64,000 nt of DNA from Sphingomonas bisphenolicum (GTDB lineage Bacteria; Pseudomonadota; Alphaproteobacteria; Sphingomonadales; Sphingomonadaceae). Shown here piece after piece: positions 222-59,245 of the stretch. Each line of letters begins with the position of its first letter. The stretch's first letter is position 1. The translations under genes and the position numbers were made by a program. The notes under the pieces were generated by a model, which saw nothing but the letters and a program-made list of their open reading frames with translations, was not told the DNA's origin and did no database searches. The stretch covers positions 16,313 through 80,312 of the forward strand of contig NZ_AP018819.1 in the NCBI RefSeq assembly GCF_024349785.1, read 5' to 3'.

Positions 222-1511
222 TCAGTTTTTGTCCCAGACCAGCGGAAGCCCCTTGAGAACCGTCGTCGCCACGGAAGGCATGTATTCCAGCTTGAAACCA
301 TCAGCGAGACGCATGTTGGGAATACGGCGCATCAGTTCTTCGTAGGCCGCTTTTGCTTCGATACGGGACAGGTACTGTCCTGCGCAGACGTGACGACCGA
401 AGCCGAAAGAGACCATTTCCTTGATATTGTCGCGGTTCAGGCGAAACGTCTCAGGTTCGGGGAATACATCGGGGTCAAGATTTGCAGCGGTGAGATCGAG
501 GTAGACGATCGATCCGGATTCGATTTTCTGGCCGCATAGTTCTACATCCGACAGCGTTCGCCGGAACAGCCCGTCGACCGGACAGCGACGGCGCAGCGTT
601 TCGGAAATCGCCGCGGGGATCAGCGACGGATCCTCGGTAAGAGTGTCCTTGAGGTCCGGCGTGGTCAGCACGAAATAGGTGAGGTGCGCGATCAGCGTTG
701 CCGTGGTGTCATGACCAGCCGCCCCGAATTCCAGTGCGTTGCAAACATTGGCGCTGATCGTGATCGTGCGTGAGCCGTCCGGTTCGCGCAGCTGCAACAG
801 GTTTGACAGCATGTTGTTGCCGGGATTGCGATCAAGGTTCTCGACGACTTCGCGCAGGTAGTCGTTCGCCTCCGCCAGGCCTTCCCAGTTCTGCCGCAGT
901 ACCTCTTCCGGCATCGGCACGAAGAATCTTGCGTCGGCGCGCTCCGGTACCTTAGGGGTGAACAGCTGGAAGAAGCAGTTGGACCAGCGATGATAATCTT
1001 CCGCCCGTTCCTTGGGGATCCCGAGCAGATCGACGATCAAGTAGAGCGCAAGTTTGTAGCTGAAATCGTGGAGGAGATCGCATTCGCCCTTGTCGATGAA
1101 GGTATCGATAAGTTCGTTGGCGATCCGGCGAACGACCTCGTCCTTACCCACCAGCCGACCGGGGAGGAGGGCTTGCTGGACGGGAACCCTGAGCTTGGTG
1201 TGCTCCGGCGGGTCCATCGAGGGCAGATGCACGTCGGTGTAAAGGTCCGGCACGCGCGGCGCGATATCATCGGGCGGGGGGAGCAGGCCAAACGCGACAG
1301 AAGAAAAGACCTGCGGAGTGAACAAGGCCGAGCGCACATCCTTGTGCTTGCTGACGATCCACAAATTCAGCGGCTTATAGAAGTGCAGCGGATAGTCCCT
1401 AAGGGCGCGGGCTGCGTATTTTTCGCGGTTGCAGGCATATTCGGGCGAAAAGATGTCGAGGTCTGGAAAGACCGGCAGTGTCTGAGGGTTCATGTTCGGA
1501 TTCCCGCTCAT
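222..1511 (-). CDS. bisdB: cytochrome P450, bisphenol A hydroxylase-like (BisdB-like)
   Basis: Soluble class I bacterial cytochrome P450 of 429 residues. The I-helix oxygen-binding motif AGHDTT is at 265-270, the K-helix ExxR (ETLR) at 304-307, and the heme loop FGFGRHVCAG at 369-378 with the cysteine thiolate at 376. There is no membrane anchor. A [2Fe-2S] ferredoxin gene lies 56 bp upstream on the same strand, so this pair should need only a ferredoxin reductase from elsewhere. Ferredoxin-then-P450 order and IS6100 flanking agree with what I recall of bisdA-bisdB of the bisphenol A degrader Sphingomonas bisphenolicum AO1. The stilbene-cleaving and 4-hydroxybenzoate genes at 43-59 kb support that substrate. 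Family is certain; the bisphenol A assignment is inferred from context. An in-frame ATG at 1493 is an alternative start. Confidence 0.85.
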   Translation of the reverse strand: MSGNPNMNPQTLPVFPDLDIFSPEYACNREKYAARALRDYPLHFYKPLNLWIVSKHKDVRSALFTPQVFSSVAFGLLPPPDDIAPRVPDLYTDVHLPSMDPPEHTKLRVPVQQALLPGRLVGKDEVVRRIANELIDTFIDKGECDLLHDFSYKLALYLIVDLLGIPKERAEDYHRWSNCFFQLFTPKVPERADARFFVPMPEEVLRQNWEGLAEANDYLREVVENLDRNPGNNMLSNLLQLREPDGSRTITISANVCNALEFGAAGHDTTATLIAHLTYFVLTTPDLKDTLTEDPSLIPAAISETLRRRCPVDGLFRRTLSDVELCGQKIESGSIVYLDLTAANLDPDVFPEPETFRLNRDNIKEMVSFGFGRHVCAGQYLSRIEAKAAYEELMRRIPNMRLADGFKLEYMPSVATTVLKGLPLVWDKN

Positions 1512-1567
1512 TTTCGAATTGGGAAGGAAGGACGGCGTCGGCGCGCGTGCGCAGACAGCCTAGGCGC

Positions 1568-1885
1568 TCAGGAGTCCGGCGGGATCGTGAGCTTAAGGCC
1601 ATCCAGTTCGGCCGTGACCGGTATTTGGCAGGAGAGCCGCGACCGTCCGGGGGTCGAGACCAGGCCGGAAAGCAGCATCTCCTCGTCGGAGGAGACCGGC
1701 GGCAGGGTCCCGGCGGGAGCAGCGTCGATGTAGACGTGGCAGGTCGCGCAGGAGCAGCATCCGCCGCACATCGCCTCGACGCCGTCGATATTGGCGTCGC
1801 GAAGGGCTTCCATCAGGAACCCGGAGGCTGCGACGTCGAGTTCGCGTATCTCCCCATCGCGGGTAGTCACTTGGATATGAGGCAT
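1568..1885 (-). CDS. bisdA: [2Fe-2S] ferredoxin of the P450 system (BisdA-like)
   Basis: A 105-residue adrenodoxin/putidaredoxin-type ferredoxin that should pass electrons to the P450 encoded just downstream. Cluster ligands fit C40-x5-C46-x2-C49 and C86. Two extra cysteines (C43, C44) fall inside the first loop, giving CGGCCSCATC, which is unusual for the family. It is the first gene of the pair; 56 bp separate its stop from the P450 start. No reductase gene is present, so a host flavoprotein must be used. The BisdA label rests on gene order, the IS6100 context and the downstream pathway genes elsewhere in the window. Confidence 0.85.
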   Translation of the reverse strand: MPHIQVTTRDGEIRELDVAASGFLMEALRDANIDGVEAMCGGCCSCATCHVYIDAAPAGTLPPVSSDEEMLLSGLVSTPGRSRLSCQIPVTAELDGLKLTIPPDS

Positions 1886-2177: not shown

Positions 2178-3057
2178 GGCTCTGTTGCAAAGATTGGCGG
2201 CAGTCAGAGGTAGGCTGTCGCTCTGCGCCGATCAGGCGGCTGCTGCGAAATGGTGGTTGAGCATGCCCATGGCCTCCGTCAGCGCCGAGGGCCCAATGCC
2301 AAAAGCTCTCTCCACAAGGCGCACCTCGCCCCTGATGCCGGGCTGCAGGCACCAGGGGCGAGCCTGTCCTTTGCGCAGGGCTCGCATGACTTCGAATCCC
2401 TTGATCGTGGCATAGGCCGTGGGGATCGATTTGAAACCGCGCACCGGCTTGATCAGTATCTTGAGCTTTCCGTGATCGGCCTCGATCACGTTATTGAGAT
2501 ACTTCACCTGCCGGTGGGCCGTCTCCCGGTCCAGCTTTCCTTCGCGCTTCAATTCGGTGATCGCTGCACCATAGCTCGGCGCTTTGTCGGTATTGAGCGT
2601 GGCAGGCTTTTCCCAGTGCTTCAGGCCTCGCAGGGCCTTGCCCAGGAACCGCTTCGCTGCCTTGGCGCTGCGGGTCGGCGACAGGTAGAAATCGATCGTG
2701 TCGCCCCGCTTGTCGACTGCCCGGTACAGGTAGGTCCACTTGCCCCGCACCTTGACGTAGGTTTCATCCAGGCGCCAGCTCGGATCAAAGCCACGCCGCC
2801 AGAACCAGCGCAGCCGCTTCTCCATCTCCGGGGCGTAGCACTGGACCCAGCGATAGATCGTCGTATGGTCGACCGAAATGCCGCGTTCCGCCAGCATTTC
2901 CTCAAGGTCGCGATAGCTGATCGGATAGCGACAATACCAGCGCACCGCCCACAGGATCACATCACCCTGGAAATGGCGCCACTTGAAATCCGTCATCGTT
3001 CCGTCCGTCCAATCTCCGCCAAGCATGCTCAAGCTTCACGATTTTTGCAACAGAGCC
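2178..3057 (-). mobile_element. IS6100, complete (880 bp)
   Basis: Complete 880-bp IS6-family element bounded by GGCTCTGTTGCAAA (2178) and TTTGCAACAGAGCC (ending 3057). It interrupts trbB: the trbB reading frame stops abruptly at its right edge. Flanking octamers CTCCGGAG (left) and GGCGCGGG (right) differ, so there is no target duplication and the copy sits at a rearrangement junction. It is in direct orientation with the copy at 32326-33205, which brackets the whole plasmid backbone. Confidence 0.98.
2232..2996 (-). CDS. tnpA: IS6100 transposase
   Basis: A 254-residue DDE transposase of the IS6/IS26 family, starting MTDFKW. It contains the conserved HTTIYRW segment, the W-x-x-DETYVKV catalytic region, the middle D in the NTDKAPSY block, and the EADHGKLK glutamate region. 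It drives cointegrate-forming replicative transposition. An upstream in-frame ATG exists at 3032, but MTDFKW is the usual start. Confidence 0.97.
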   Translation of the reverse strand: MTDFKWRHFQGDVILWAVRWYCRYPISYRDLEEMLAERGISVDHTTIYRWVQCYAPEMEKRLRWFWRRGFDPSWRLDETYVKVRGKWTYLYRAVDKRGDTIDFYLSPTRSAKAAKRFLGKALRGLKHWEKPATLNTDKAPSYGAAITELKREGKLDRETAHRQVKYLNNVIEADHGKLKILIKPVRGFKSIPTAYATIKGFEVMRALRKGQARPWCLQPGIRGEVRLVERAFGIGPSALTEAMGMLNHHFAAAA

Positions 3058-4627: not shown

Positions 4628-7537
4628 ATGAGCCTTGGCGTTTCGAGTGGGGATCTGATCGGCTCCTGGAGCCTGAGTTTTTCGGACATCGCGTTCGTGA
4701 CCGGCAAAGCGGAGACGGCACGACTGGGATTGGCGGTTCAGCTTAGATTTTTCGCCGGGCATGGCTTCTTTGTGCCGGATCATGCGTCGATACCCTCCGA
4801 CGGTGTCTTGTATCTGGCGGAGCAACTTGGTCTCGATGCCAAATCCGTGAACCACTATGATTTTTCCGGGCGCACCGCCCGCCGGCATTGCGCGGAGATT
4901 TTGCGGCATCTCGGGTTCCGCCGTATGACGCAGACGGATCGCAGGGCGTTGTCGAGGTGGATTTCCGACGATCTTTGTGCGGGCGGGCAGCCGATCAATG
5001 CCATGCTCGAGCATGTTTTCCTGTGGTGCCGCGACCGCCGTATCTATGGGCCGTCGCGCAAGGAGCTGGAACGCCTCGTCCGTTCGCAACGACACCTCTA
5101 TCTGGAGGCCCTGTTGGCCCGAGTCCGCGATCGGCTTGCGCCGGATGCGGTCGCCTTGCTGGAAGCCTCGCTCGCCGATCCCGATGGCCCGACCGGCTTC
5201 AACACGATGAAGGGGGATGCAGGTCAGGCGACGCTCGAAAACATTCTTGGCGTGACCGCCAAACTCGCCTTTATCCAACGGCTTGCTCTTCCCCGAGATT
5301 TCCTATCGGTCACGGGCAAGGCATGGGTCGATCAGATCGTTCGCCGGGTTGCCGGCGAGAAAGCCTCGGAGATGCGCCGGCATGTACCGGCGCGCCAGCT
5401 CGGGCTCTATGCCGTTTATCTGATGGCGCGGGAAGCTCAGCTTACGGATGCGATGGTCGACCTGCTGATCGAGACGGTCCATAAGATCGGATCGCGCTCG
5501 AAACGCAAGGTGGTGGGCGATATCGCGAAAGACATCGAGCGGGTCTATGGCAAGGAGCGACTCCTGGTCGAGATTGCCAGCGCTTCGATCGACGATCCAT
5601 CCGGGCGCATCTGCGATGTCATTTTCCCAATCGCCGGCAAGGACAAACTGGCGGCGATCATCAAGGAAAGCCAGGCAAAGGGCGCCTTGGATCGGCGGAT
5701 CTACAAGGTGATGCGGAGGTCATGGGCCAATCATTATCGCCGTATGCTGCCAAGCCTGCTTTCGGCACTGGAGTTCCGGTCGAACAACGCCGTGTGGCGT
5801 CCGGTGCTGGCGGCCCTGGACTGGATCAGAAGCAAAGTGGATGATGGATGCCGCTACGTGCCGCCGCACGCAGTGCCGGTCGACGAGGTCATTCCGGCGA
5901 GATGGCGCAGTTCCGTCATTGATGAAGAGGGGCGCGTAAACCGGATCAGTTATGAGCTTTGTGTCCTCGCGCAACTGCGCGATCGCATCCGTTCTAAGGA
6001 AATCTGGGTTGTCGGGGCGGACCGATACCGCAATCCCGATGACGATCTTCCCAAGGACTTCGATGCGCGGCGAGAAGCATATTACACAGGATTGAACCTG
6101 ACGGCGGATGCGCGTGCATTTTCAAGCGCCATCCGGGAAGAGCTTGCTCAGGAACTGTTGCTCCTCAATGCCAATATTCCCCGGAACGACAAGGTTCGGC
6201 TGCTGTGGCGCGGCGAGAACCGTATATCTCTCACCCCGTTCAAACCCTTGCCCGAACCCAGGGGTCTCGCCTCGATCAAGACCGAGATCGGCCAACGCTG
6301 GCCGATGACCGGGCTGCTCGACGTACTGAAGGAGGCTGCCCTTGATACGGGACTTCTCGAAGCGTTCGAAACATCGGCCTCGCGTGTTGCACTGCCGAAA
6401 ACCGCGCTGGATCAACGTCTCCTGCTATGCCTCTACGGCCTGGGAACGAATGCCGGGCTCAAGCGGATCGCCGGCGCCACCCCCGATGTCAGCTATGAAG
6501 AGCTGCTGCATGTCCATCGCCGCTTCGTTCATGCCGCGGCGCTCAAGGAGGCGTGTGCCAGGGTTGCGAATGCGACCCTGGCAATCCGCAATGCTGCAGT
6601 CTGGGGGGACGCCGGCACGGCCTGTGCGTCAGATTCCACAAAGTTCGGAGCCTGGGATCGCAACCTGATGACGGAATGGCATGCGCGTTATGGTGGACGG
6701 GGCGTCATGATCTACTGGCATGTCGAACGACGCGCGACATGCGTCTATTCCCAGCTCAAGCGCTGCTCTTCCTCCGAGGTCGCCTCCATGATCGAGGGCG
6801 TGCTGCGCCATTGCACCGACATGGAAATCCAGCGACAATATGTTGATAGTCATGGCCAAAGCGCGGTTGGCTTTGCATTTTGCCGGCTTCTCGGATTTGA
6901 GCTTGCACCCCGCCTGAAAGCGATCGCTCGCCAGAAGCTGGCTCTTCCCGATGTCGGCATGCGAACGCGGCTTCCCCACTTGCAGCCGATCCTCTCCAGT
7001 CCGATCAACTGGGATGAGATCGAGCAGCAATATGACGAGATGGTCAAATATGCAGCCGCGATGCAGACAAAAACCGCCGACCCGGAGGCGATCCTGCGCC
7101 GGTTTAGCCGCTCCGAGGTGATGCACCCGACCTACAAGGCGTTGAGTGAGCTGGGCCGCGCGGTCAAGACGATCTTCCTGTGCCGGTATCTGCGCGAGGA
7201 GTCCTTCCGCCGCGAAATTCATGAAGGCCTGAATGTCGTTGAAAACTGGAACAGTGCCAATGGGTTCGTTTTCTTCGGCAAGGGCGGCGAGATCGCCACT
7301 AACCGCATCGATGAGCAGCAGCTCTCGGTCCTGGCGCTACATTTGCTGCAAGCGTCGCTTGTCTATGTGAACACCCGAATGCTTCAGAGCGTGCTGGTGG
7401 AACCGAAATGGACGGGCCGGATGACGCCGGATGATTATCGCGGCCTCACACCGCTGATTTACAGCCACGTCAATCCTTATGGCCGCTTCGACCTCGATCT
7501 GAATAGCCGGATCGATTTTGGGCGGCTTGCTGCCTGA
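4628..7537 (+). CDS. tnpA: Tn3-family transposase
   Basis: A 969-residue TnpA of the usual Tn3 length. It has the N-terminal DUF4158-like DNA-binding region (residues ~1-170) and the C-terminal DDE domain. Recognisable stretches include [25 protein letters not shown] (split around D and the [13 protein letters not shown] block), the [20 protein letters not shown] segment, and the [17 protein letters not shown] region with the terminal catalytic Glu. AGGGAG precedes the ATG by 7 nt. The resolvase follows on the same strand after a ~140-bp res region. Confidence 0.95.
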
Positions 7538-7539
7538 CC

Positions 7540-7679
7540 GGGGCCTTTCCGCTCGCACCATTTGGGTGCACCCGAACGTGACGATCGGAAGTGACATATA
7601 CGACATGTCACAAAAGGGTGGTTCCGTCACCAATGTTACTGTACGAGGGCAAAGCCACCCTAATGTGACGGATTTGCCC
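7540..7679. other. putative res site of the Tn3 element
   Basis: The 142-bp gap between tnpA and tnpR holds several TGACR-type half-sites and a good palindrome at 7592-7610 (TGACAT...ATGTCA), as expected for a three-subsite resolution site bound by the resolvase. The identical region lies at 61503-61642 in the inverted copy. Confidence 0.55.
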
Positions 7680-8546
7680 ATGACCCGCGTCGGCTACGCC
7701 CGCGTCAGCACCATCGACCAGGATCTCGACATCCAGGTTGCCCGGTTGAAGGCAGCGGGCTGTGAAATCCTCCGCTCCGAAACAGGCTCGGGCGCATCGC
7801 GCACTGGACGCACGGAGCTTGAGACGATCATGCAGTTCCTGCGCGCCGATGACGAACTCGTCGTCCTGCGTCTCGATCGGCTCGGTCGCTCCACACGCGA
7901 TGTTCTCAATCTGGTTCATGAACTCGACCAGAAGGGAGCCTCATTGCGGGTGCTTGAGCCGGAGGTGACGACGGCCGGAAGCATGGGGCGGATGGTGATC
8001 ACCATTCTGGGCATGGTCGCGGACATGGAACTGACGTTCATCAAGGACCGGCAGCGCGCCGGGATCGAGGCGGCGCGCGCCGAAGGCGTCTACAAAGGCC
8101 GGAAGAAAAACATCGATGACGATGAAATCCGACGCCGGATCACCGCCGGCGCGAGCAAGGCCAGCGTCGCGCGCGACCTCAAGATCTCAAGAATGACCGT
8201 CTATCGGGCGCTTGACGTCATTCCTTCAAGGATCGGGCTGCCGGAAAAGCCGCCTTCTGTCACCATCGCCCTGCATCTGACCATCGAGAACTTCAACAAG
8301 CATGGTCGTGGCAGAAAGCCCGCTCGCGAGCGCATTGAGGCGATGCTGGAGCGGGATTACCAGATGCAAAAGACCGGGAACTGCGATTACACGCTGACCG
8401 TCGCCTATGATCAGGGTGCCGATGGCGTCAGCCTCGATGATGAGATCGCATCTCTCCAGACAGAGATGTTCAACATCGCAGAGAGCTACAGGTGCTCGAT
8501 CGAGACCGATGTTTACGAGATTGGAGGACAAGAGCGAGCCTGGTAG
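7680..8546 (+). CDS. tnpR: serine resolvase with C-terminal extension
   Basis: Resolves cointegrates at the adjacent res site. The conventional start MTRVGYARVST at 7680 gives 288 residues. The catalytic domain (~1-140) has YARVST with the nucleophilic Ser, and RLDRLGRSTRDVL. A HIN-type helix-turn-helix follows (~150-185, ASKASVARDLKISRMTVYRAL). About 100 further residues extend beyond the HTH, whereas classical TnpR proteins stop near 185; this tail ends in an acidic segment and has no domain I recognise. The frame is open upstream to 7518 but that part overlaps tnpA and res. Confidence 0.93.
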   Translation: MTRVGYARVSTIDQDLDIQVARLKAAGCEILRSETGSGASRTGRTELETIMQFLRADDELVVLRLDRLGRSTRDVLNLVHELDQKGASLRVLEPEVTTAGSMGRMVITILGMVADMELTFIKDRQRAGIEAARAEGVYKGRKKNIDDDEIRRRITAGASKASVARDLKISRMTVYRALDVIPSRIGLPEKPPSVTIALHLTIENFNKHGRGRKPARERIEAMLERDYQMQKTGNCDYTLTVAYDQGADGVSLDDEIASLQTEMFNIAESYRCSIETDVYEIGGQERAW

Positions 8547-8609
8547 ATCGCCATGTTCAATCTTTGTTCTTCAACATGGCCAAAATCGCAGCTTCGGGCC
8601 GACTGGGCC

Positions 8610-8842
8610 AAGAAGCCACTCGTTGATGCTCTTGAACTGCGGACTTCGACGTAAACGCAGACCGCTTTTCTATATATGTCTTTCAGTCGCCAGCATATTT
8701 TTTCAGCACTGAATTGCCAGAACCTTTAATGTCCTTTAAGCCGGGGCATTATGGCGAATCATACGCAACTCAAACCCTCCACGCTGTCCCAGCGCAAACG
8801 CGCCAAGGCACAGAGCGAGCAGGGCTTTAAGCGCATGAGTTT
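8610..8842 (+). repeat. 233-bp direct repeat, right copy
   Basis: Identical to 4273-4505. This copy remains joined to the intact small regulator gene, so the right side is the native continuation and the left copy is the duplicate edge. It contains an A+T-rich upstream region (TATATATG, TATTTTTTC) likely to hold the promoter of the gene at 8751. Confidence 0.95.
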
Positions 8843-8990
8843 GGCCTTGTCCCCTAAAGCCGTCGAGATCGTGGAGAGGGTGAAAGCCAGCAAGGGATTC
8901 ACGTCCCGCGAGGCTGCAATCAACGCGATCCTAGAGCGGATCGGGGACGATATGTTTCTGCAACAGGAGTTTCTGGCCGTGAGTGGATAA
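8751..8990 (+). CDS. small ribbon-helix-helix-like protein upstream of rep
   Basis: A 79-residue basic protein. After a polar N terminus, residues 29-68 (MSLALSPKAVEIVERVKASKGFTSREAAINAILERI) have the strand-helix-helix pattern of CopG/Arc-type DNA-binding proteins. It lies 178 bp upstream of the putative replication gene on the same strand, so a role in copy-number or rep control is plausible but inferred. Its promoter and first ~31 codons are duplicated at 4273-4505 by the transposon event. A hairpin lies just after its stop. Confidence 0.65.
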   Translation: MANHTQLKPSTLSQRKRAKAQSEQGFKRMSLALSPKAVEIVERVKASKGFTSREAAINAILERIGDDMFLQQEFLAVSG

Positions 8991-8996
8991 GAAAAT

Positions 8997-9015: not shown

Positions 9016-9021
9016 ACCCTC

Positions 9022-50246: not shown

Positions 50247-50306
50247 TTCGTAGGGACGGCCTGCTTTCTCCATTGATCTTCTATTTACCACTAAAGAGGT
50301 GGAAAC

Positions 50307-51704
50307 ATGCGGTTTGAACGAATCAATCCACTCACTGGCGAAGTAGCATCCTCGGCTGAGGCTATGCAGGCCGCTGACATTCCGAACTTAGGCAATAGGG
50401 CTGCCGAAGGTCAAAAGGTCTGGGCAGCGCTGGGTCCCAACACTCGTCGCATGGTTCTGCTGCGGGCGGCATCGGCCTTGGAGGCCCGCAAGGACCAGTT
50501 TGTTGCTTCGATGATGCAAGAGACTGGGTCCACACGTGGTTGGGCATTGTTCAATCTGGAACTTGCTGCCGGTATAGTCCGAGAAGCGGCAGCGCTGACT
50601 ACTCAAATATGCGGTGAAGTAATTCCTTCGGACAAGCCCGGCTGTCTGGCCCTTGTGATGAAGGAACCTGTCGGGGTCGTGCTTGGGATAGCACCTTGGA
50701 ACGCACCGATTATTCTCGGCGTTCGTGCTATCGCGGTGCCGCTTGCCTGTGGGAACTCGGTGATCCTCAAAGCTAGTGAATTATGTCCAAATACCCACGC
50801 GCTTATCGTCGAGGCCTTCGCTGACGCGGGGTTTCCCGAGTCGGTAGTAAATATCGTGACTAATGCGCCAGAAGATGCTGCAGAAGTAGTCGGCGCGCTG
50901 ATCGACGCGCCAGAGATCAAGCGTATCAACTTTACTGGCAGCACCCATGTCGGTCGGATTATCGCTCGTCGGGCGGCGGAAAATCTTAAACCTTGCCTGC
51001 TCGAGCTTGGCGGTAAGGCGCCGCTCCTGATTCTGGAAGATGCCGATCTCGACGAAGCCGTCAAGGCGGCAGCTTTTGGTGCGTTTATGAACCAAGGCCA
51101 AATTTGCATGAGCACCGAGCGAATTATCGTGGTTGACGCAGTCGCAGAGGCTTTTGCGGAAAAGTTTGCATCAAAGACGGCGACCCTTGTCGCGAGCGAC
51201 CCGCGTGAAGGGAAGGCGCCGCTGGGTTCGGTGGTCGACATGAGCACTGTGAACCGCGTCAACGAGTTGGTTGACGATGCGATCGAGAAAGGTGCCAAGA
51301 TCTTGACGGGCGGAAAAGGGGACAATGTGGTGATGTCTGCCATCGTGCTTGATGGCGTAACTCCCGCAATGGATCTCTATCGCGACGAGAGCTTCGGCCC
51401 GGTCGTGGCCTTAATCCGTGCTCGCGATGCCGACCAAGCGGTGGAGATTGCCAATGACAGCCAATACGGGCTTTCTGCGGCTATCTTCACACGCGATATC
51501 GCAAAGGGGTTGATGCTCGCGAAGAGGATCAAATCAGGCATCTGTCATATCAATGGGCCCACGGTTCATGACGAGCCGCAGATGCCTTTCGGGGGTACCG
51601 GAGCGTCTGGCTATGGCCGGTTCGGAGGCAAACAGGGGATCGATAGTTTTACTGAAACTCGCTGGATTACAGTTGAAACCCTGCCAGGACAGTTTCCGAT
51701 TTAA
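50307..51704 (+). CDS. aromatic aldehyde dehydrogenase
   Basis: A 465-residue NAD(P)-dependent ALDH. Catalytic Glu233 in LELGGKAP and nucleophile Cys267 in NQGQICMST; cofactor loop FTGSTHVG; the terminal motif PFGGTGASGYGRFGG. By sequence style it belongs with vanillin/salicylaldehyde-type dehydrogenases. In this operon it should oxidise 4-hydroxybenzaldehyde, one product of stilbene cleavage, to 4-hydroxybenzoate. AGAGGTGG lies 6 nt before ATG. This part of the window has visibly lower G+C than the plasmid backbone. Confidence 0.92.
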   Translation: MRFERINPLTGEVASSAEAMQAADIPNLGNRAAEGQKVWAALGPNTRRMVLLRAASALEARKDQFVASMMQETGSTRGWALFNLELAAGIVREAAALTTQICGEVIPSDKPGCLALVMKEPVGVVLGIAPWNAPIILGVRAIAVPLACGNSVILKASELCPNTHALIVEAFADAGFPESVVNIVTNAPEDAAEVVGALIDAPEIKRINFTGSTHVGRIIARRAAENLKPCLLELGGKAPLLILEDADLDEAVKAAAFGAFMNQGQICMSTERIIVVDAVAEAFAEKFASKTATLVASDPREGKAPLGSVVDMSTVNRVNELVDDAIEKGAKILTGGKGDNVVMSAIVLDGVTPAMDLYRDESFGPVVALIRARDADQAVEIANDSQYGLSAAIFTRDIAKGLMLAKRIKSGICHINGPTVHDEPQMPFGGTGASGYGRFGGKQGIDSFTETRWITVETLPGQFPI

Positions 51705-51743
51705 ACCAAGTCTAATCAAACTTACCAGTTGGGAATTAAAACA

Positions 51744-52427
51744 ATGGATTTCACCACATATATAGATGCATTCAATTCCGGGGATTACGTTAATCTCGTG
51801 GATCAATGGTTTACGGAGGATGTGGTCTGGGAGGATGGCGGTCAAACGGTGACGGGCCGCGATGAATGGTTGAATTTGTTCCATTTCCTTCGAAATGGTA
51901 TCCGTGAGATATTTCGGCCTATCACAGGCTTTGATGGCCCGTCGGGTCATTTTCGTGAGATCGACATGGATTTTCATGCACTAAAGTCGCGGCCAGACTT
52001 TCCGTTTGGACCGTTGGCGCCAGGCGACATGATGACGGTGAAGTTCTTTATCATATATGAGTGTGAAGGTAATCGGATTCGTCGCCTGAAAGCAGCGACT
52101 TGGCCTGTCAACTATGGAACGAGTAAATTACCGCGCTTGGGCGCTCACGTTACTCAGCGAGCCGCGTTTCAGGCTTTCCAAGCAGCGCTGGCCCATGAGC
52201 ATGGCGCAAATGCAAGGCAGTATCTTGCCGCTCAATTGCAAATGGGCAGCACCGGTGGGACGCGTTCCAGTTCGCATGAAGACGCGATTGGCTCGCTTAG
52301 AGAGGCTGGCGTGGCCACGGCGACGTTGAAGGACGCGAGGGACGATGAACTGTTGCTAGATGCAGGCGGGCGTCTGATGAGACTAGGCCTGCAAAACGGT
52401 CTAATATCTCAATTCGAACTGGTTTAA
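51744..52427 (+). CDS. SnoaL-like (NTF2-fold) protein, possible dehydratase
   Basis: A 227-residue protein. Residues ~1-125 form an NTF2/SnoaL-like alpha+beta barrel (MDFTTYIDAFNSGDYVNLVD QWFTEDVVWEDGG, then GDMMTVKFFIIYECEGNRIR). The remaining ~100 residues are an unusual helical extension. SnoaL-like folds include polyketide cyclases and scytalone dehydratase, so the missing dehydration of 1,2-bis(4-hydroxyphenyl)-2-propanol to the stilbene is an attractive but unproven role. It lies 39 bp after the ALDH; start MDFTTY chosen over an upstream ATG. Confidence 0.7.
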   Translation: MDFTTYIDAFNSGDYVNLVDQWFTEDVVWEDGGQTVTGRDEWLNLFHFLRNGIREIFRPITGFDGPSGHFREIDMDFHALKSRPDFPFGPLAPGDMMTVKFFIIYECEGNRIRRLKAATWPVNYGTSKLPRLGAHVTQRAAFQAFQAALAHEHGANARQYLAAQLQMGSTGGTRSSSHEDAIGSLREAGVATATLKDARDDELLLDAGGRLMRLGLQNGLISQFELV

Positions 52428-52475
52428 TTCGGCGCCGACACGTCCGGCGTCCGGCATAGCGTGAGACATGCCCTC

Positions 52476-52919
52476 ATGTTTGTAAATAAAATCTCCGTTG
52501 AGATAAGTTGGGGTGATTGCGATCCCGCCGGGATAGTTTATTATCCCCAGTATTTCCGAATGTTTGACAGCTGCACCGCCGCGATTTTTCGCATGGTGAC
52601 CGGTATTGACAAGCGCGCTATGATTGAGAGGTACGGGATTGTTGGTTTTCCGATGGTGGATACCGGAGCCCGTTTTTATATTCCCAGTCGGTTTGGTGAA
52701 GAAATTCAGGTGCATACCTCCGTTCCCAAGATTGGCCGTAGTAGTTTTGAGGTGTCACATCGCGTCTTCAGAGGTGAGGATCTGGCGATCGAGGCATTCG
52801 AAAAGCGCGTTTGGTCTGCCATCGACCAGGAGAGCGGAAGATTGCGAGGCATTCCATTGCCCCCTGAAATCGTGTCCGCGCTTTCCACTCCCTCCATCCA
52901 TGAAGGTGTTTCGTCGTGA
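52476..52919 (+). CDS. 4-hydroxybenzoyl-CoA thioesterase-type hotdog enzyme
   Basis: A 147-residue hotdog-fold acyl-CoA thioesterase of the 4HBT family. The active-site loop SWGDCDPAGIVYYPQYFRMF (11-30) carries Asp16, matching the catalytic Asp17 of 4-hydroxybenzoyl-CoA thioesterase. Predicted to hydrolyse 4-hydroxybenzoyl-CoA made by the next enzyme to 4-hydroxybenzoate, comparable to the vanilloyl-CoA thioesterase VceB of Sphingobium SYK-6. ATG 52476 used; a GTG lies five codons earlier. Its TGA overlaps the next start. Confidence 0.88.
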   Translation: MFVNKISVEISWGDCDPAGIVYYPQYFRMFDSCTAAIFRMVTGIDKRAMIERYGIVGFPMVDTGARFYIPSRFGEEIQVHTSVPKIGRSSFEVSHRVFRGEDLAIEAFEKRVWSAIDQESGRLRGIPLPPEIVSALSTPSIHEGVSS

Positions 52920-53803
52920 GCAAGCTGATTATCACCGTTGCTCCTACGGGCGGCATGGCATCCAAGAAGCAGAGTTCGCTTCTTCCCACGCAACCCGATG
53001 AAATTGCAGCTTCCGTATACGCATCTTACAAGGAAGGGGCAGCAGTTGCTGCGCTTCACGCTCGTAGGCCGGATGATGGCGCAACTTGTAACGCGGATAT
53101 TTACCGTGATATTAACGGACGTATTCGCGATTGCTGCGACATCATTATAAACAATTCCACCGGGGGCGGATCAAGCGGTGACATGCTTGTCGAGAGGCCG
53201 GACGGATTGTTCGAATCAAGCTTCGAGGAACGACTAAAGGGCTGCGAAGCCGGTGCGGAGATGGCGACCTTCGATGGCATGACCTTCGTCGACGTCCATG
53301 GCGGACGGGAAATATGCGTAATCACGCCGCCCAGCCGCTGCGAAACGCTGGTGCAGCGTATGACGGACAGGGGCATCAAGCCTGAATGGGAGGTATTTTC
53401 ACCAACCCATATATTGCAGGATGTAACACGACTCATTCAGAAAGGCTATGACAAGCCTCCCTACTACATCAATATGGTCCTGGGCGCAGACAAGGGCTTT
53501 CAAGGCGCCATGCCCTATAGTCACGATATCCTAGCGGCAATGATCGCGGCTTTGCCGCCGCAGTCGATTTTCTGTGTGTCGGCGATTGGGGCGGCGCAGC
53601 TGCCCGCGACCACACAGGCTATGCTGTTGGGCGGACACGTGCGCGTCGGCCTAGAGGACAATCTTTACTATAGCCGCGGGCAGTTAGCGACCAATGAACA
53701 GCTCGTGGCTCGAACCCGCCGCATCGCGACGGAACTGGGGATTGACATCGCATCTTCCGCAGAGGCGCGTGAGATCCTCGGCCTGAGTACCCCGAATTCT
53801 TGA
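52916..53803 (+). CDS. beta-keto acid cleavage enzyme (BKACE, DUF849)
   Basis: A 295-residue TIM-barrel BKACE, which transfers an acyl group from a beta-keto acid to CoA: beta-keto acid plus acetyl-CoA gives acyl-CoA plus acetoacetate. Matches: KLIITVAPTGG (3-13), IIINNSTGGG, VEVFSPTHI region, VRVGLEDNLYYSRGQLA with the zinc Glu. Of the two zinc histidines in the usual HLHARDP, the second is kept (His48) but the first is Ala46 and the Asp is Arg51 (AALHARRP). Expected substrate is 4-hydroxybenzoylacetate, as for VceA acting on vanilloylacetate. Start overlaps the thioesterase stop. Confidence 0.87.
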   Translation: MSKLIITVAPTGGMASKKQSSLLPTQPDEIAASVYASYKEGAAVAALHARRPDDGATCNADIYRDINGRIRDCCDIIINNSTGGGSSGDMLVERPDGLFESSFEERLKGCEAGAEMATFDGMTFVDVHGGREICVITPPSRCETLVQRMTDRGIKPEWEVFSPTHILQDVTRLIQKGYDKPPYYINMVLGADKGFQGAMPYSHDILAAMIAALPPQSIFCVSAIGAAQLPATTQAMLLGGHVRVGLEDNLYYSRGQLATNEQLVARTRRIATELGIDIASSAEAREILGLSTPNS

Positions 53804-53847: not shown

Positions 53848-55092
53848 ATGGAGAAGAGGATGGTTGGAAAGAAGCCACTTGTTCTGATGATCGTCACCCA
53901 CGACACGAAAGAATTCGAGGGACGTTTTCTCAGAACCTGCCTTGAAGAAGCTGGATGCGAAATAGTCCATCTCGATCCAAGCGTGCGGCGTACGGTCGGA
54001 AGCCCCGAGATTCCACCCGAAGAGGTTGCTGAAGCGGCGGGGTGGAGCATTGAGAGAGTGCGTGCGCTTGGTCATGAGGGCAAATGCCAGGCTGTGATGA
54101 TCGAGGGTGCTATCCGAGTTGCCCTTCATCATCATGAGGCGCAACCCTTCTCCGGCATTATCTCTATCGGCGGGTCGATGGGAACAACGCTTGGCACAGC
54201 GGTCATGAAGGCCTTTCCCTATGGTCTTCCCAAGTTGATGGTCTCCACCATGGCGTCGGGGTTCACTGCACCATTCGTAGGGGCGAAGGACATCATAATG
54301 TCCAATGCCGTCACGGATGTCTCAGGCATCAATTCGATCAGCCGCGATGTCTATCGCAACGCCGCGCTCGCTATTGCTGGCATGGCGAAGGGTTATGACC
54401 CTGCCGCACAGAGGGAAGATCGACCTCTCGTTCTTATGACCACATTGGGTACTACCGAAGCATCAGTTCGACGTGTAAGGGAAGCGCTTCAGGACGACGG
54501 CAACGAAGTCATGGTGTTCCATTGTGCTGGCGGCGGCGGCGGAACCCTCGATGCGATCGTTGAAGGACGTGATGTCGCTCTAGTGCTCGATTTGTCGGCA
54601 ACAGAAATCGTCGACCATCTTCACGGCGGCCTTACAGATGGTGGTCCTGAGCGTGCGATGGCGGCGCTGCGAAAGGGCATTCCGACGATCTTGGCTCCCG
54701 GCAATGCCGATTTCATCATCGGCGGGCCGTTAGCGGAGGCTAAGAAGCGGTTCCCAGGCACGCGCTATCACATGCATAATGCTGCGCTGACTGCTGTTCG
54801 CACACAGATGCAGGAGCTACGAAATCTGGCCGATCACTATGCCAAAATGGTCATTGAAGCGAAAGGACCTGTACGCTTTTTCGTACCGTTGGGCGGCTTT
54901 TCCAGCCATGACAGCCCGGAAGGGCATCTCCACGATATCAATGTGCCCGGCCCCTTCGCCGAATATCTTCGCAAAGTCATTCCCAGCGCTATTCCGGTCG
55001 AAGCGGTGGATGCTCACTTTAATGATGAAGTGTTTGCTGACCGCATCATTCTCGCGGCCCGCGATTATCTCAAGATCGGAGTGCATGCGTGA
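53848..55092 (+). CDS. Tm-1-like ATP-binding (UPF0261) protein
   Basis: A 414-residue protein of the UPF0261/Tm-1-like ATP-binding family, named after the N-terminal domain of the tomato Tm-1 resistance protein. Visible features: LVLMIVTHDTKEFEGRFLRT near the start, a glycine-rich loop GIISIGGSMGTTLGTAVMK, a second fold from ~205 (PLVLMTTLGTTEASVRRVRE), HCAGGGGGTLDAIVEG, and the conserved end VPLGGFSSHDSPEG. No biochemical role is established that I know of. It is locked between BKACE and the carboxylase (4-bp overlap), so a role in ATP-dependent activation of the acetophenone is the natural guess. Start 53848; the 16 codons before it lack a ribosome-binding site. Confidence 0.85.
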   Translation: MEKRMVGKKPLVLMIVTHDTKEFEGRFLRTCLEEAGCEIVHLDPSVRRTVGSPEIPPEEVAEAAGWSIERVRALGHEGKCQAVMIEGAIRVALHHHEAQPFSGIISIGGSMGTTLGTAVMKAFPYGLPKLMVSTMASGFTAPFVGAKDIIMSNAVTDVSGINSISRDVYRNAALAIAGMAKGYDPAAQREDRPLVLMTTLGTTEASVRRVREALQDDGNEVMVFHCAGGGGGTLDAIVEGRDVALVLDLSATEIVDHLHGGLTDGGPERAMAALRKGIPTILAPGNADFIIGGPLAEAKKRFPGTRYHMHNAALTAVRTQMQELRNLADHYAKMVIEAKGPVRFFVPLGGFSSHDSPEGHLHDINVPGPFAEYLRKVIPSAIPVEAVDAHFNDEVFADRIILAARDYLKIGVHA

Positions 55093-55562
55093 AAGGTGAT
55101 CTGCCTCTAAGTCCTGAGGATGTGAACGAAATCGTCACAATCCTGAAAGGCAGTCAATATGATCGGTTGGACATCCGAACCGATCGCTATCGGCTTCGCG
55201 TCAGCAGGGCCGATGCAGGAGAAGGTCAAGGGGAAGGCTGGAGCCAGGCGTGGTCGCTCGAAGACGAAGCGTCGCCTGCCGGGGCGACTGCCCAGTCGGG
55301 TCAGGAAGAAATCCCGGTTCCCGAAGGCATGCATGCCATTCGCGCACCTTTGCCTGGCGTCTTTTACCGCTCCCCAGCTCCTGGAACTGCATACTTCGTT
55401 GAGGTCGGCAGCAGCGTCGAGGCAGAATCCAATGTCGGTATCATCGAGACCATGAAGCTCTTCAATCCCGTCCCCGCAGCTTGTGCAGGCGAGATCGCGG
55501 AAATCTTAGTCGAGAATGGCGCGATGGTAGATGCCGGCGCCATTTTGATGCTCGTCAAATGA
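55089..55562 (+). CDS. biotin carboxyl carrier protein subunit
   Basis: A 157-residue AccB-like protein. N-terminal ~45 residues contact partner subunits; an acidic Ala/Gly linker (~45-78) leads to the biotinyl domain (~80-156) with the biotinylated Lys123 in ETMKLF (usually AMKM/ETMK). GTG start overlaps the stop of the Tm-1-like gene (GTGA). With the next two genes it forms a three-subunit acyl/aryl-ketone carboxylase comparable to AcvCDE of Sphingobium SYK-6 and HpeCBA of Rhodococcus. Confidence 0.92.
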   Translation: MKGDLPLSPEDVNEIVTILKGSQYDRLDIRTDRYRLRVSRADAGEGQGEGWSQAWSLEDEASPAGATAQSGQEEIPVPEGMHAIRAPLPGVFYRSPAPGTAYFVEVGSSVEAESNVGIIETMKLFNPVPAACAGEIAEILVENGAMVDAGAILMLVK

Positions 55563-56896
55563 TCAGGCGTCTCCTCATTGCCAATCGCGGCGAAATCGCT
55601 TTTAGAGTTATTCGCACAGCAAAGCGTCTGGGCATCGAGACTGTCCTTGGGGCGTCCGAAGCGGATCTGAATAGCGCGGCCGCATGGCTGGCGGATCATA
55701 TCGTAAAGGTCGGTCCGGCTCCCTCGGCGCAAAGCTATCTCGACGTTGCCAAGGTGATCGCCGCGACCAAACTAAGTGGGGCGGATGCGCTGCACCCCGG
55801 CTATGGCTTTCTCTCCGAAAATGTGGGCCTTGCCCGTGCTTGCGCGGAAGCGGGGATCGCTTTCGTCGGCCCTTCCTCATCCAGCCTCGAGGCAATGGGT
55901 GACAAGCTGATGGCGCGTAAGGTCGGCATCGAAGCGGGCCTCCCGGTGGTCCCGGGCGGTGAGGCAGGCGATAAGGAGGAAGCGCGAAGGCGCGCGCAGG
56001 AAACGGGCTATCCGCTATTGCTCAAAGCTGTGTCCGGGGGCGGCGGTAAGGGAATGAAAAGAGTCGATAATGAATCGCAGCTAGATGGTCAGATCGATCT
56101 TGCCATGGCTGAAGCGCAGGCTTCCTTCGGGGATCCACGCATCTACGTCGAGCGCTTTATCACGAGCGGCCGGCATATCGAAGTGCAGGTGCTTGGCGAT
56201 GGTGTGAATGCGATTCATCTGGGCACGCGCGACTGTTCGATACAGCGCCGCTTCCAGAAGCTGGTCGAGGAAGCTCCAGCAGCCCTTCTTCCCGATGACA
56301 AGCGCACGGCTATCGAGCAGGCGGCGGTCGATTTGGCCAAGTTTCTGGCATATCGAGGAGCAGGTACGGTCGAATTTCTGGTAGATGCCGTTACTTTCGA
56401 TTTTTATTTCCTAGAGATGAATGCGCGTATCCAGGTAGAGCATCCCGTAACGGAAGCGATCACCGGCGTCGATCTGATTGAGCAACAGCTGTTAGTAGCA
56501 GCCGGTAGCAAATTGGCGCTGACACAGGAGATGATACGGCCTCGCGGTCATGCCATTGAGGTGCGCATCAACGCCGAAAACTGGCGCGAAGATTTCCAGC
56601 CCTCGCCCGGGCGCGCCGCATCGGCCAAGTGGCCGGCGGGCGAAGGCATACGCGTCGATACCCATATATTCAATGGCGGCCTCGTCCCGCCCTTTTACGA
56701 CTCCCTCGCCGGGAAGCTCATTGTCCATGGCAACGACCGAGCCGAGGCTATTGAGCGCCTGACTGCTGCCTTATCGGTATTCGAGCTAGAAGGCATGGAT
56801 TCAACAGCTGGGCTTCACGCCATTATCGCGGCTGATCCGCGATTCCGTGCCGGCGACGTCGACACCCGCTTCTTCGGAAATTTGAACAATGGCTGA
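55559..56896 (+). CDS. biotin carboxylase subunit
   Basis: A 445-residue AccC-type ATP-grasp biotin carboxylase starting MIRRLLIANRGEIAFRVIRT. Contains the HPGYGFLSEN loop, the glycine-rich ATP lid KAVSGGGGKGMKRV, EVQVLGDG and the MNARIQVEHPVTE active-site segment. Charges the biotin of the upstream carrier with CO2 using ATP. ATG overlaps the carrier's stop (ATGA); its own stop overlaps the next start by 8 bp. Confidence 0.95.
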   Translation: MIRRLLIANRGEIAFRVIRTAKRLGIETVLGASEADLNSAAAWLADHIVKVGPAPSAQSYLDVAKVIAATKLSGADALHPGYGFLSENVGLARACAEAGIAFVGPSSSSLEAMGDKLMARKVGIEAGLPVVPGGEAGDKEEARRRAQETGYPLLLKAVSGGGGKGMKRVDNESQLDGQIDLAMAEAQASFGDPRIYVERFITSGRHIEVQVLGDGVNAIHLGTRDCSIQRRFQKLVEEAPAALLPDDKRTAIEQAAVDLAKFLAYRGAGTVEFLVDAVTFDFYFLEMNARIQVEHPVTEAITGVDLIEQQLLVAAGSKLALTQEMIRPRGHAIEVRINAENWREDFQPSPGRAASAKWPAGEGIRVDTHIFNGGLVPPFYDSLAGKLIVHGNDRAEAIERLTAALSVFELEGMDSTAGLHAIIAADPRFRAGDVDTRFFGNLNNG

Positions 56897-58373
56897 AATA
56901 AATCTCGTCGACGTTTCGGTGCGCGATGGCAACCAGTCGCTGTGGGGCGCGACAGGCCTCGATACAGCAAAGATCCTCCAGGTCGCCGGCCAGATGGATC
57001 GCGTAGGCTTTAGAGCAATCGATTTCACATCATCGACCCACATGGCCGTAGCAGTGCGTTATTTCCGTAACAATCCCTGGGAGCGTATCAGGCGTGTCCG
57101 GGCTGCCATGCCCAACACACCGCTTCAATTTATCACCACCGGCCTACGATTCATTGCTTGGCAGCAGGCTGGTCCCGAATTTATGCGAATCGTCTATCGC
57201 CGGCTCCAACATAATGGCATCGGCCGCTTCATTGTTCTTGATCCCATGCATGACATAGATGCGGTTCTTGAAGCAGCTCAGCTCATCAAAGAAGAGGGTG
57301 ATGCGCAAGTTATGGCGGCGCTGACATTCACCCTCTCTGCCGTGCACGATGATGCATTCTATGCAGATTTCGCAGCGAAACTCGCCAGATCGCCCCATAT
57401 CGACCTGTTCTACATCAAAGATCCGGGCGGCCTGCTATCTCCAGATCGCGTGAAGACACTCGCACCGGCGATCAAGGCGGTGATCGGCGGGAAATCGCTG
57501 GAAGTCCACCCGCACTGCACGATCGGTTATGGTCCACTTACCGCTTTGGCGGCCGCCGATTGCGGAGCTGTCGATGGCATTCATGTCGGTATCGGCCCCC
57601 TCGGGGATGGCAGTTCGTTGCCCGAGGCCGGTAGGCTTGTCGCGAATTTGCGGGAAGCAGGCCATAGTGTGCCGATCGATGACAGGGCTCTAGCAAACGT
57701 TACCGATTATTGGTGGCGTCTGGCTAAGGCGGAAGGCCTCCAACCGGGCACGCCTCAAGCCTTCGATGCCAGTTTTCTGCGTCACCAGATCGCGGGAGGG
57801 GTGATGACCACCACTCGTCGACAACTGAGTGAACTGAAGCTCGAGCACCTTTTTGGCGCGGTAGTCGAAGAGACGGAGCGTGTTCGTGCTGAACTTGGAT
57901 ATCCTATCATGGTAACGCCCTTTCCCCAGATGGTGATGACGCAGGCGACAACAAATATCGTCAGCGGCCAGCGGTACGTTCAGGTATCGGATCAGATTTT
58001 GCGCTATGCAATGGGCAAGCTTGGGCGTCCGACGAGCCCAATCGATCCGGTGATCCTGGATGTCATCATGGATCGACCGCGGGCAAAGGAGATAGCTGGT
58101 GAACCGGATTTCCCTGACTATTCGGATCTCCGTCGCAAGTTTGGCGCGCATCTGGACGATGAGGAATTTCTGTTGCGCGCCGTGATGCCGGCGGATCAGG
58201 TCGACGCAATGCTTGCGATGGGACCCAGCCGCGCAACCTATACTCCGGAGGCTGCGCCGTTGATGAAATTGCTACGAGAACTTATTGCTAACCCGACCCT
58301 GAAAGATGTCGTAATCGACAGAAAAGGTTTACGATTGGCACTTCATTCTGGCGCTTCCGCGGGCAAAATGTAA
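56889..58373 (+). CDS. carboxyltransferase subunit (pyruvate-carboxylase type)
   Basis: A 494-residue DRE-TIM carboxyltransferase like the oxaloacetate decarboxylase alpha/pyruvate carboxylase CT domain. VSVRDGNQSLWG (9-20) is the metal/substrate loop, the carbamylated-Lys-type region IKDPGGLL and the metal-binding HPHCTIG follow; a C-terminal allosteric-like domain (~300-460) is present. A type with a single TIM-barrel CT subunit suits carboxylation of a small ketone methyl group. Predicted acceptor: (phospho-)4-hydroxyacetophenone, giving the benzoylacetate. Confidence 0.92.
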   Translation: MAEINLVDVSVRDGNQSLWGATGLDTAKILQVAGQMDRVGFRAIDFTSSTHMAVAVRYFRNNPWERIRRVRAAMPNTPLQFITTGLRFIAWQQAGPEFMRIVYRRLQHNGIGRFIVLDPMHDIDAVLEAAQLIKEEGDAQVMAALTFTLSAVHDDAFYADFAAKLARSPHIDLFYIKDPGGLLSPDRVKTLAPAIKAVIGGKSLEVHPHCTIGYGPLTALAAADCGAVDGIHVGIGPLGDGSSLPEAGRLVANLREAGHSVPIDDRALANVTDYWWRLAKAEGLQPGTPQAFDASFLRHQIAGGVMTTTRRQLSELKLEHLFGAVVEETERVRAELGYPIMVTPFPQMVMTQATTNIVSGQRYVQVSDQILRYAMGKLGRPTSPIDPVILDVIMDRPRAKEIAGEPDFPDYSDLRRKFGAHLDDEEFLLRAVMPADQVDAMLAMGPSRATYTPEAAPLMKLLRELIANPTLKDVVIDRKGLRLALHSGASAGKM

Positions 58374-59245
58374 TGGTCAGTGAATCGCTTGACGGCTTGG
58401 CTGCCCGGCTTGCTGGTGCATCGGGTTTCATTTTCGACATGGACGGCACGCTTGTACTTGGCGACAGCGCCAGTTCTGGATATCGCCCGCTTCCGGGCGC
58501 AGAAGTGCTGCTGGAAGAACTTACAGCGCGCGGCATGCCCTTTAGGATTTTCACCAATGGGTCTGCCATAGCCCCGGCTCAATATGCGTATAACCTGCGC
58601 GTTGCCGGGTTGAAGGTGCCTGACAGTGCTGTGATGACGCCGACGACGGCCGCTGCATATTGGTTTTCTGAACGGGGGATCCGCAAAGTCAGGGCGCTGG
58701 GGCGTAGCGAATCATTCGTGCCGCTGCGTGCCGCTGGTATCGAAGTCGTCGAAAATGCCGCTCCTTCTTGCGCGGTTGAGGCTGTCTATGTCGCCTATCA
58801 CCGCGCATTCACGTTCGACGATCTGGAGGCGGTGCTCGCGGACCTCGAAGACGGCGCGCAGCTCACAACGGCGTCCAATGTTCCCTTTTTCGCTTCGGAG
58901 GGCGGGCGCAAGATCGGAACTAGCTTCGCGATTAATGCGGCCATCACCGCGATGACGGGGATCGAGCCTGTCATACTCGGCAAGCCATCGCTCGCAGCAC
59001 TGCATTGCGCCCGATCTTTGATGGGTCTGCCGACTGATGCGACGCATAAATTGATCGTCGTGGGTGACGACCCAGGGCTAGAAATGAGAATGGCGCGGGC
59101 CGCGTCCGCCGCGAGCATTGGTGTGACGACTGGTCTCTCAGATGCAACCGACTTTGGCGCACATGCCGATGAGCAGGCAGATTTCGTCGTCAGATCGCTC
59201 GACGAATTGTGCGTGCGGTTAGGCGAAAGAATTGACGCAGTATGA
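58373..59245 (+). CDS. HAD-superfamily phosphatase (NagD type)
   Basis: A 290-residue HAD-IIA hydrolase. Motif I is FDMDGTLV (Asp22 nucleophile, Asp24), motif II TNGS, motif III Lys in LGKPS, motif IV GDDPGLEM. Last gene of the operon, overlapping the carboxyltransferase stop by one base. A phosphatase next to an acetophenone carboxylase is diagnostic of the phosphorylation-carboxylation-dephosphorylation routes (AcvF, HpeD), where it removes the aryl phosphate. Confidence 0.9.
   Translation: MVSESLDGLAARLAGASGFIFDMDGTLVLGDSASSGYRPLPGAEVLLEELTARGMPFRIFTNGSAIAPAQYAYNLRVAGLKVPDSAVMTPTTAAAYWFSERGIRKVRALGRSESFVPLRAAGIEVVENAAPSCAVEAVYVAYHRAFTFDDLEAVLADLEDGAQLTTASNVPFFASEGGRKIGTSFAINAAITAMTGIEPVILGKPSLAALHCARSLMGLPTDATHKLIVVGDDPGLEMRMARAASAASIGVTTGLSDATDFGAHADEQADFVVRSLDELCVRLGERIDAV

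Follow-up and report, generated by a model that had tools for sequence, protein, structure and literature searches.

A plasmid of Sphingomonas bisphenolicum carries bisdAB and a mobile operon that may jointly encode a route from bisphenol A to protocatechuate

The closest described system is bisdAB, the cytochrome P450 (BisdB) and ferredoxin (BisdA) with which Sphingomonas bisphenolicum AO1, Sphingobium YC-JY1 and Pseudomonas putida YC-AE1 start the breakdown of bisphenol A. In YC-JY1, 1,2-bis(4-hydroxyphenyl)-2-propanol (1-BP), 4,4'-dihydroxy-alpha-methylstilbene (4-DM), 4-hydroxybenzaldehyde (4-HBD) and 4-hydroxyacetophenone (4-HAP) were observed, and each of the last two was reported as sole carbon source, the data not being shown in the paper (PMC7278973). 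A 2019 study stated that the enzymes past the first step “are still unknown”; its bisphenol A-degrading community contained an AO1-like P450 and ferredoxin, no 4-HBD gene was found in either Sphingomonas genome, and the Sphingomonas isolate used 4-HAP slowly (PMC6366072). Statements taken from these two articles and from PMC5028733, PMC8407694, PMC9733184 and PMC12997858 refer to excerpts. The present analysis concerns a stretch of 64,000 nucleotides of S. bisphenolicum (the window), bases 16313-80312 of the 80,312-base contig C3 (NZ_AP018819.1) in a genome of 5.2 Mb and six contigs. It was found that this plasmid carries bisdAB and a ten-gene operon, two modules, presumably mobile through IS6100 and Tn3 elements, which would jointly encode the conversion of bisphenol A to protocatechuate. 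The probability of this reading is put at about 0.74.

The P450 and ferredoxin of the window are, by sequence, BisdB and BisdA, which bears out the first-pass annotation that had taken them for the bisphenol A type. BisdB is identical at 422, 414 and 416 of 423 positions to the proteins of Sphingobium A3, YC-JY1 and YC-AE1, and BisdA at 105, 104 and 104 of 105. For BisdB the resulting values of 97.9% (YC-JY1) and 98.3% (YC-AE1) coincide with the figures published for AO1 (PMC7278973, PMC9733184), and the window may therefore come from AO1 itself. Three published primers agree exactly with the window in their gene-derived parts. Hydroxylation of bisphenol A by this pair is to be expected, the activity having been published for near-identical copies. 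Full-length bisdB was detected by megablast in three of 72,556 plasmid records, those of A3, YC-JY1 and YC-AE1, all published bisphenol A degraders (PMC8407694, PMC7278973, PMC9733184). Among 397 genomes of the family, a BisdB relative at E ≤ 1e-60 was present in one, the source genome itself. A relic of the module (the last 111 bases of bisdB with flank) was also observed at 43129-43461 of NC_013176.1, a P. putida plasmid.

The second module follows an IS110-type remnant in the order lignostilbene-type dioxygenase (LSD), aldehyde dehydrogenase (ALDH), SnoaL/NTF2-fold protein, thioesterase, BKACE, UPF0261 protein, biotin carboxyl carrier protein (BCCP), biotin carboxylase (BC), carboxyltransferase (CT) and HAD phosphatase (Table 1). 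The genes from UPF0261 to HAD overlap by 1 to 8 bases and thioesterase and BKACE by 4 bases, which suggests a single transcript. All genes named in the first-pass annotation were located where it had placed them, and none of the 13 open reading frames (ORFs) checked contained an internal stop. From its list the dehydratase candidate (NTF2), the putative kinase (UPF0261) and the putative phosphatase (HAD) had been omitted.

In the proposed route, BisdA and BisdB would convert bisphenol A into 1-BP, as shown by others for near-identical proteins. The SnoaL/NTF2-fold protein would dehydrate this tertiary alcohol, probably via a quinone methide, to 4-DM, which the LSD may cleave into 4-HBD and 4-HAP. 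The aldehyde would be oxidized to 4-hydroxybenzoate by the ALDH. The UPF0261 protein would phosphorylate the ketone and BCCP-BC-CT would carboxylate it, after which removal of the phosphate by the HAD enzyme would leave 4-hydroxybenzoylacetate; this chemistry has been shown in homologous pathways. BKACE and thioesterase could then release 4-hydroxybenzoate. PobA would yield protocatechuate, whose ring is probably opened by the protocatechuate 4,5-dioxygenase (ligAB), encoded off the plasmid on contig C2. The locus is intact and has close links to strains published as bisphenol A degraders; it offers one candidate per step, the functions past bisdAB being predicted ones. The earlier proposal of a route to protocatechuate is partly supported: its genes are intact, they accompany bisdAB in published degraders, and the lower ones fit a 4-HAP pathway.

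Table 1. Positions of the features in the window and the matches on which their assignment rests
Feature	Position	Strand	Evidence and remarks
IS6100 copy, opposite orientation, left of bisdAB	from L125 into window base 174 (window 1-174)		
bisdB, cytochrome P450 starting bisphenol A breakdown	222-1493	-	Pfam p450 E 3.6e-25; heme motif FGFGRHVCAG
bisdA, [2Fe-2S] ferredoxin	1568-1885	-	Fer2 E 2.2e-7
IS6100 copy, right of bisdAB	2178-3057	-	100% IS6100 transposase match; end repeats
pobA, 4-hydroxybenzoate 3-monooxygenase	43864-45045	-	TIGR02360 659.6 bits, above cut-off 538.7
AraC-family regulator, pobR-like by position	45027-46052 (start uncertain)	+	HTH_18 E 6.2e-23
TetR-family regulator, divergent to the LSD operon	46252-47067	-	TetR_N E 6.2e-9
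LSD, proposed 4-DM cleaver	48460-49899	+	RPE65 E 3.8e-124
ALDH, proposed 4-HBD dehydrogenase	50307-51704	+	Aldedh E 3.5e-142
SnoaL/NTF2-fold protein, proposed dehydratase forming the methylstilbene	51744-52427	+	SnoaL_2 29.4 bits, cut-off 27, E 1.3e-6
4HBT-type thioesterase, proposed 4-hydroxybenzoyl-CoA thioesterase	52461-52919	+	closest PDB relative 1bvq, E 3e-15
BKACE, proposed 4-hydroxybenzoylacetate + acetyl-CoA to 4-hydroxybenzoyl-CoA + acetoacetate	52916-53803	+	Pfam BKACE 263.1 bits, cut-off 24.8, E 3.7e-78
UPF0261 (Tm-1-like) protein, candidate Saro_1862/MarK-type hydroxyphenylethanone kinase	53860-55092 (start as annotated in A3)	+	UPF0261 domains
BCCP	55089-55562	+	Biotin_lipoyl E 6.8e-18
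BC	55559-56896	+	Biotin_carb_N E 1.8e-39; CPSase_L_D2 E 6e-67; GGGGKG
CT, proposed phospho-4-hydroxyacetophenone carboxylase	56889-58373	+	PYC_OADA E 4.8e-19
HAD-IIA (NagD-like) phosphatase, HpeD-like	58373-59245	+	TIGR01460 E 3.1e-23, 82.8 bits, below cut-off 100.15; DMDGT

The dioxygenase, called stilbene-type in the first-pass annotation, indeed falls in the lignostilbene family, with 6ojw as closest PDB relative (E 2.8e-127). It retains four His residues (168, 219, 295 and 472), which we take to be the Fe ligands, and the pair Tyr102 and Lys135, presumably the binders of the substrate 4-hydroxyl. For the ALDH, 25 of 45 NCBIfam matches were listed, and it scored under the equivalog cut-off in each of them. 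The gap between the two genes (49900-50306) varies, 113 bases being absent in the A3 plasmid pSYA3-2 and about 364 in YC-AE1; therefore a 121-aa ORF in it is probably no real gene.

The family profile of the SnoaL/NTF2-fold protein matches PDB entry 3i0y (E 1.2e-6), and its structure prediction was poor (pLDDT 59.9). An early listing of two proteins had made it look like an orphan; this was rejected, as relatives were found in 31 of the 397 family genomes (source included), two at 100% and the rest at 38-47% identity. Fourteen relatives inspected were 265-277 aa long, and one relative (L112) has an LSD gene some 3 kb away. LdpA, a member of the NTF2 superfamily, forms lignostilbene via dehydration to a quinone methide (PMC12997858). 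In the corresponding cassette of YC-AE1, NTF2 is the sole gene left without an assigned step, and dehydration the sole upper step without a gene.

In the lower arm, the thioesterase shares GDCDPAGIV with 1bvq, a 4-hydroxybenzoyl-CoA thioesterase, and its Asp is presumably the functional residue of the 4HBT family; no NCBIfam cut-off was reached. What the first-pass annotation had called a ketone carboxylase is a biotin carboxylase of the kind that, in the Hpe pathway, acts on a phosphorylated ketone, HpeCBA having carboxylated phosphorylated ketones only (PMC9618137). The two-component dikinase HpeHI/AcvAB was not found in the source genome, where PPDK_N occurs in one ORF (928 aa) and PEP-utilizers domains are confined to this ORF and a second one of 772 aa. 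The UPF0261 protein was first inferred to be the kinase because HpeHI is missing and the phosphatase retained. It is 65% identical to Saro_1862, the structure of which was solved with acetovanillone (PDB 9mpy). A claim to a new kinase was dropped, since MarK is already published as a single-component kinase of Novosphingobium aromaticivorans (PMC13101465) and the title of 9mpy points the same way; the passages on Tm-1-like proteins in the excerpts of PMC5028733 state no enzyme function. By analogy, phosphorylation of 4-HAP by the UPF0261 protein is proposed, and the 4-HAP arm looks like a phosphorylation-carboxylation pathway of the MarK/Hpe type.

The occupant of the kinase slot was surveyed in related carboxylase loci. 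Relatives of the CT at E ≤ 1e-40 numbered 4820 among 7996 scored candidates, and the best 80 of 359 relatives, ranked by similarity to the window CT, were inspected. UPF0261 filled the slot in 65 of these 80 and HpeHI in 11, none had both, and 4 loci were incomplete. Several loci duplicate one another or belong to a single operon (L018-L021 with L055; L046-L048), so that the distinct UPF0261-type loci number at most about 59 of 65; for three of the 65 the upstream DNA covered was shorter than 4.5 kb. The two kinases exclude each other per operon only. A genome-wide exclusion was rejected, as 6 of 28 genomes with the UPF0261 operon have an HpeH-like gene elsewhere (28-73% identity; 3 of 3 controls detected). 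In L033, L046-L048 and L079 thioesterase and BKACE come immediately after the phosphatase. The loci L046-L048 (about 5700-17000), from A. xanthus, strain YL23 and a Sphingomonas metagenome-assembled genome (MAG), form a second UPF0261-carboxylase-HAD-thioesterase-BKACE operon, with a P450 upstream (28% to BisdB) and a ferredoxin downstream (48% to BisdA); perhaps it serves another alkylphenol or bisphenol route.

Both modules show signs of mobility. Oppositely oriented IS6100 copies flank bisdB and bisdA on each side, and further copies lie at 32326-33205 and 40036-40915. Recombination between such copies could explain why an AO1 mutant referred to in PMC7278973 has lost its bisdAB region. The backbone, including conjugation and partition genes, is shared with pSYA3-2 (window 3057-31873, 99.95% identity), and a second block at 43.6-59.6 kb is 99.9% identical apart from the 113-base gap. 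G+C was 0.51-0.59 in the ten operon genes and 0.635 in traI.

The operon DNA (48.4-59.3 kb) matched 7 of the 72,556 plasmid records, 3 of them at ≥99%; the plasmid of YC-JY1 is among those that carry the operon. The NTF2 protein (tblastn, E ≤ 1e-5) was found in three, the same ones that hold full-length bisdB. In YC-AE1 the genes LSD-ALDH-NTF2-ferredoxin-P450 are contiguous, with window segments 48015-49931, 50296-52464 and 2096-1 adjoining and followed by an IS6100 remnant; the part from thioesterase to HAD is absent. An ancestral status of this order is not claimed: no cleanly shared boundary is seen at the junction, the P450 is followed by a remnant of IS6100, and the order may be derived. 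All ten operon proteins occur at 100% (rounded) identity in S. bisphenolivorans YL23, C. bisphenolivorans H4, A. xanthus and the Sphingomonas MAG. In H4 a block corresponding to 40.9-64.0 kb is 99.99-100% identical, and H4 and A. xanthus belong to a different family from Sphingobium (NCBI taxonomy). The bisphenol A degrader BiD32 has BCCP-BC-CT-HAD and a piece of UPF0261 on the one contig examined.

Several observations weigh against the reading of two joint modules. The LSD misses the curated equivalogs NF053778 (550.2 of 800 bits) and NF053780 (533.3 of 650 bits), so that its substrate assignment is tentative; two more LSD genes on contig C2 (703521-704951, 47%; 732119-733546, 40%) are possible backups. 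In an alignment of the NTF2 protein with P0122 and 11 of the 14 relatives, a His-Asp pair is conserved in the other 12 rows and missing only from the window protein, which has RN at the aligned position and a shortened second half. No entry named LdpA was among its 43 profile matches, nor was there a sequence match to a solved LdpA. In BKACE, the first His of the HxH motif, presumably metal-binding, is Ala when aligned with 2y7d. The same replacement was seen in 14 of 16 aligned rows (five distinct sequences, 71-100% identity), and HIH was kept in two rows at 30% identity that represent one gene. Operon-linked copies read ALHARR or IHARR, the unlinked one HIHVR, so that the operon-linked subfamily may have a modified metal site. 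That Saro_1862 is MarK is itself inferred. For the step from 1-BP to 4-DM, up-regulation of “dehydratase enzymes” was described in YC-AE1, for which no match to the NTF2 gene was established (PMC9733184). Finally, by DNA comparison bisdAB was detected in none of five drafts carrying the operon or its end, beyond short matches of 74-90%, the source being positive. A further search of 12 genomes, run without a control, was likewise negative, as was H4 in the 397-genome search. The draft data comprised contigs of at least 3,000 bases, and the 2.1 kb bisdAB stretch between IS6100 copies may have been lost in assembly.

Two alternatives retain a small and similar share of the probability. According to one, the operon would be a mere passenger of the plasmid, a lignin-type pathway for diarylpropanes/stilbenes and acetovanillone that acts on methoxylated lignin dimers and acetovanillone rather than on bisphenol A products. 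Every module does have lignin relatives (LSDs, acetovanillone-bound Saro_1862 and the NTF2-type LdpA, PMC12997858), UPF0261-carboxylase operons occur in many sphingomonads, compared with the single family genome holding bisdB, and for two operon-bearing genomes, A. xanthus and the MAG, nothing on bisphenol A was seen. Against this, full-length bisdB is accompanied by the near-identical operon, or by its upper genes, in three of three plasmid records, and the operon also occurs in strains whose names or publications refer to bisphenol A. Moreover, LSD-ALDH-NTF2 is fused to bisdAB in YC-AE1, and pobA, which serves 4-hydroxybenzoate, adjoins the operon. A lignin role is considered unlikely.

The other supposes that the steps following BisdAB, dehydration and cleavage, proceed spontaneously or through BisdB or host enzymes, so that LSD and NTF2 would be dispensable. 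Its basis is the strongest single point contradicting a need for these two genes: E. coli with bisdAB alone made 1-BP, 2-BP, 4-HBD and 4-HAP (PMC7278973), and therefore cleavage there needs neither LSD nor NTF2. On the other hand, 4-DM was detected as an intermediate in YC-JY1 (PMC7278973), and it was degraded fast by a Sphingomonas isolate and not by a Pseudomonas (PMC6366072). Besides, both genes are intact in the window, and the cassette is nearly unchanged in Pseudomonas YC-AE1 (LSD 478/479, ALDH 464/465). Dispensability is considered improbable as well.

In the least probable alternative, chromosomal genes would handle 4-HAP, a Baeyer-Villiger oxidation yielding 4-hydroxyphenyl acetate and then hydroquinone, and the carboxylase arm of the plasmid would play a minor part. 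Such a route was proposed for YC-AE1, which degrades 4-HAP with a cassette devoid of the ketone arm (PMC9733184), and for the community (PMC6366072), and it could draw on five FMO-like ORFs of the source genome, another point against the joint modules. It is disfavoured by the down-regulation of hapA and hapB in the community during the early phases of bisphenol A degradation (PMC6366072) and by the plasmid steps, which are intact, agree with the Hpe/MarK route and persist in other bisphenol A strains.

The pobA of the first-pass annotation stood, lying above its equivalog cut-off; its pobR has a positional basis only, since the AraC-family protein scored 138.5 bits with the HpaA equivalog, under the cut-off of 274.65. 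The IS110-type remnant separates the TetR-type regulator from the LSD, and a search for operators upstream of the latter gave two short palindromes only. A hypothesised p-hydroxybenzoate hydroxylase from BiD32 proteomics is mentioned in PMC7278973. A TonB-dependent receptor (33469-36039), for which a role in aromatic uptake is possible, lies between IS6-type elements; pSYA3-2 also has TonB receptor genes. A C-terminal piece of a GMC oxidoreductase (39435-40019) adjoins an IS6100 copy.

The locus offers a candidate gene for each step, linked to bisdAB, and therefore turns the old gap into a set of single-gene tests. It may also illustrate how parts for lignin dimers and acetovanillone can be assembled into a pollutant pathway that IS6100, Tn3 and plasmids then move. 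The modules are known and their combination is new, the NTF2 protein being possibly a new enzyme. A wider proposal is held more tentatively, at somewhat less than even odds: that this is the full dedicated set, including as a new enzyme type a shortened NTF2 dehydratase with altered His-Asp, kin of the two-part sphingomonad NTF2 proteins of about 270 aa, in a pathway made of lignin-dimer parts and spread whole or partly over at least three families, from sphingomonads to Pseudomonas. The first-pass annotation had held that these genes were never noted together. No earlier notice was found in the literature searched: bisphenol A, bisdB and lignostilbene did not occur together, and no title or abstract start among the matches listed named a stilbene-dioxygenase cluster, most subscription papers being outside this coverage. 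Prior notice is possible there or in the YC-AE1 supplement, where 15 genes are assigned; the excerpts of that paper contain the words “lignostilbene”, “carotenoid oxygenase” and “stilbene” zero times (PMC9733184).

Compared with known systems, the window has the same P450 and ferredoxin as AO1, YC-JY1 and YC-AE1. Unlike the window with its LSD candidate, the passages of the 2020 and 2022 bisdAB papers give no stilbene-cleavage gene (PMC7278973, PMC9733184). As in the LdpA/LSD route for beta-1 lignin dimers, an NTF2-superfamily protein would yield a stilbene for cleavage by an LSD (PMC12997858); LdpA deformylates a diol, whereas the window protein would dehydrate without loss of formaldehyde. 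The Hpe/Acv systems of Rhodococcus GD02 and Sphingobium SYK-6 resemble the window in having a three-part biotin carboxylase and a NagD-like phosphatase after the kinase slot, and differ in filling that slot with the HpeHI/AcvAB dikinase in place of UPF0261. VceA of SYK-6 is, we take it, a BKACE. BKACE and thioesterase stand in the window where GD02 has HpeE/HpeF, and VceA/VceB are used in SYK-6 (PMC9618137). With respect to the MarK pathway of N. aromaticivorans, the window stands apart in that kinase, carboxylase, phosphatase, BKACE and thioesterase are strung together with a stilbene dioxygenase on a mobile plasmid; kinase and carboxylase were found clustered in merely 52 of 836 cases (PMC13101465).

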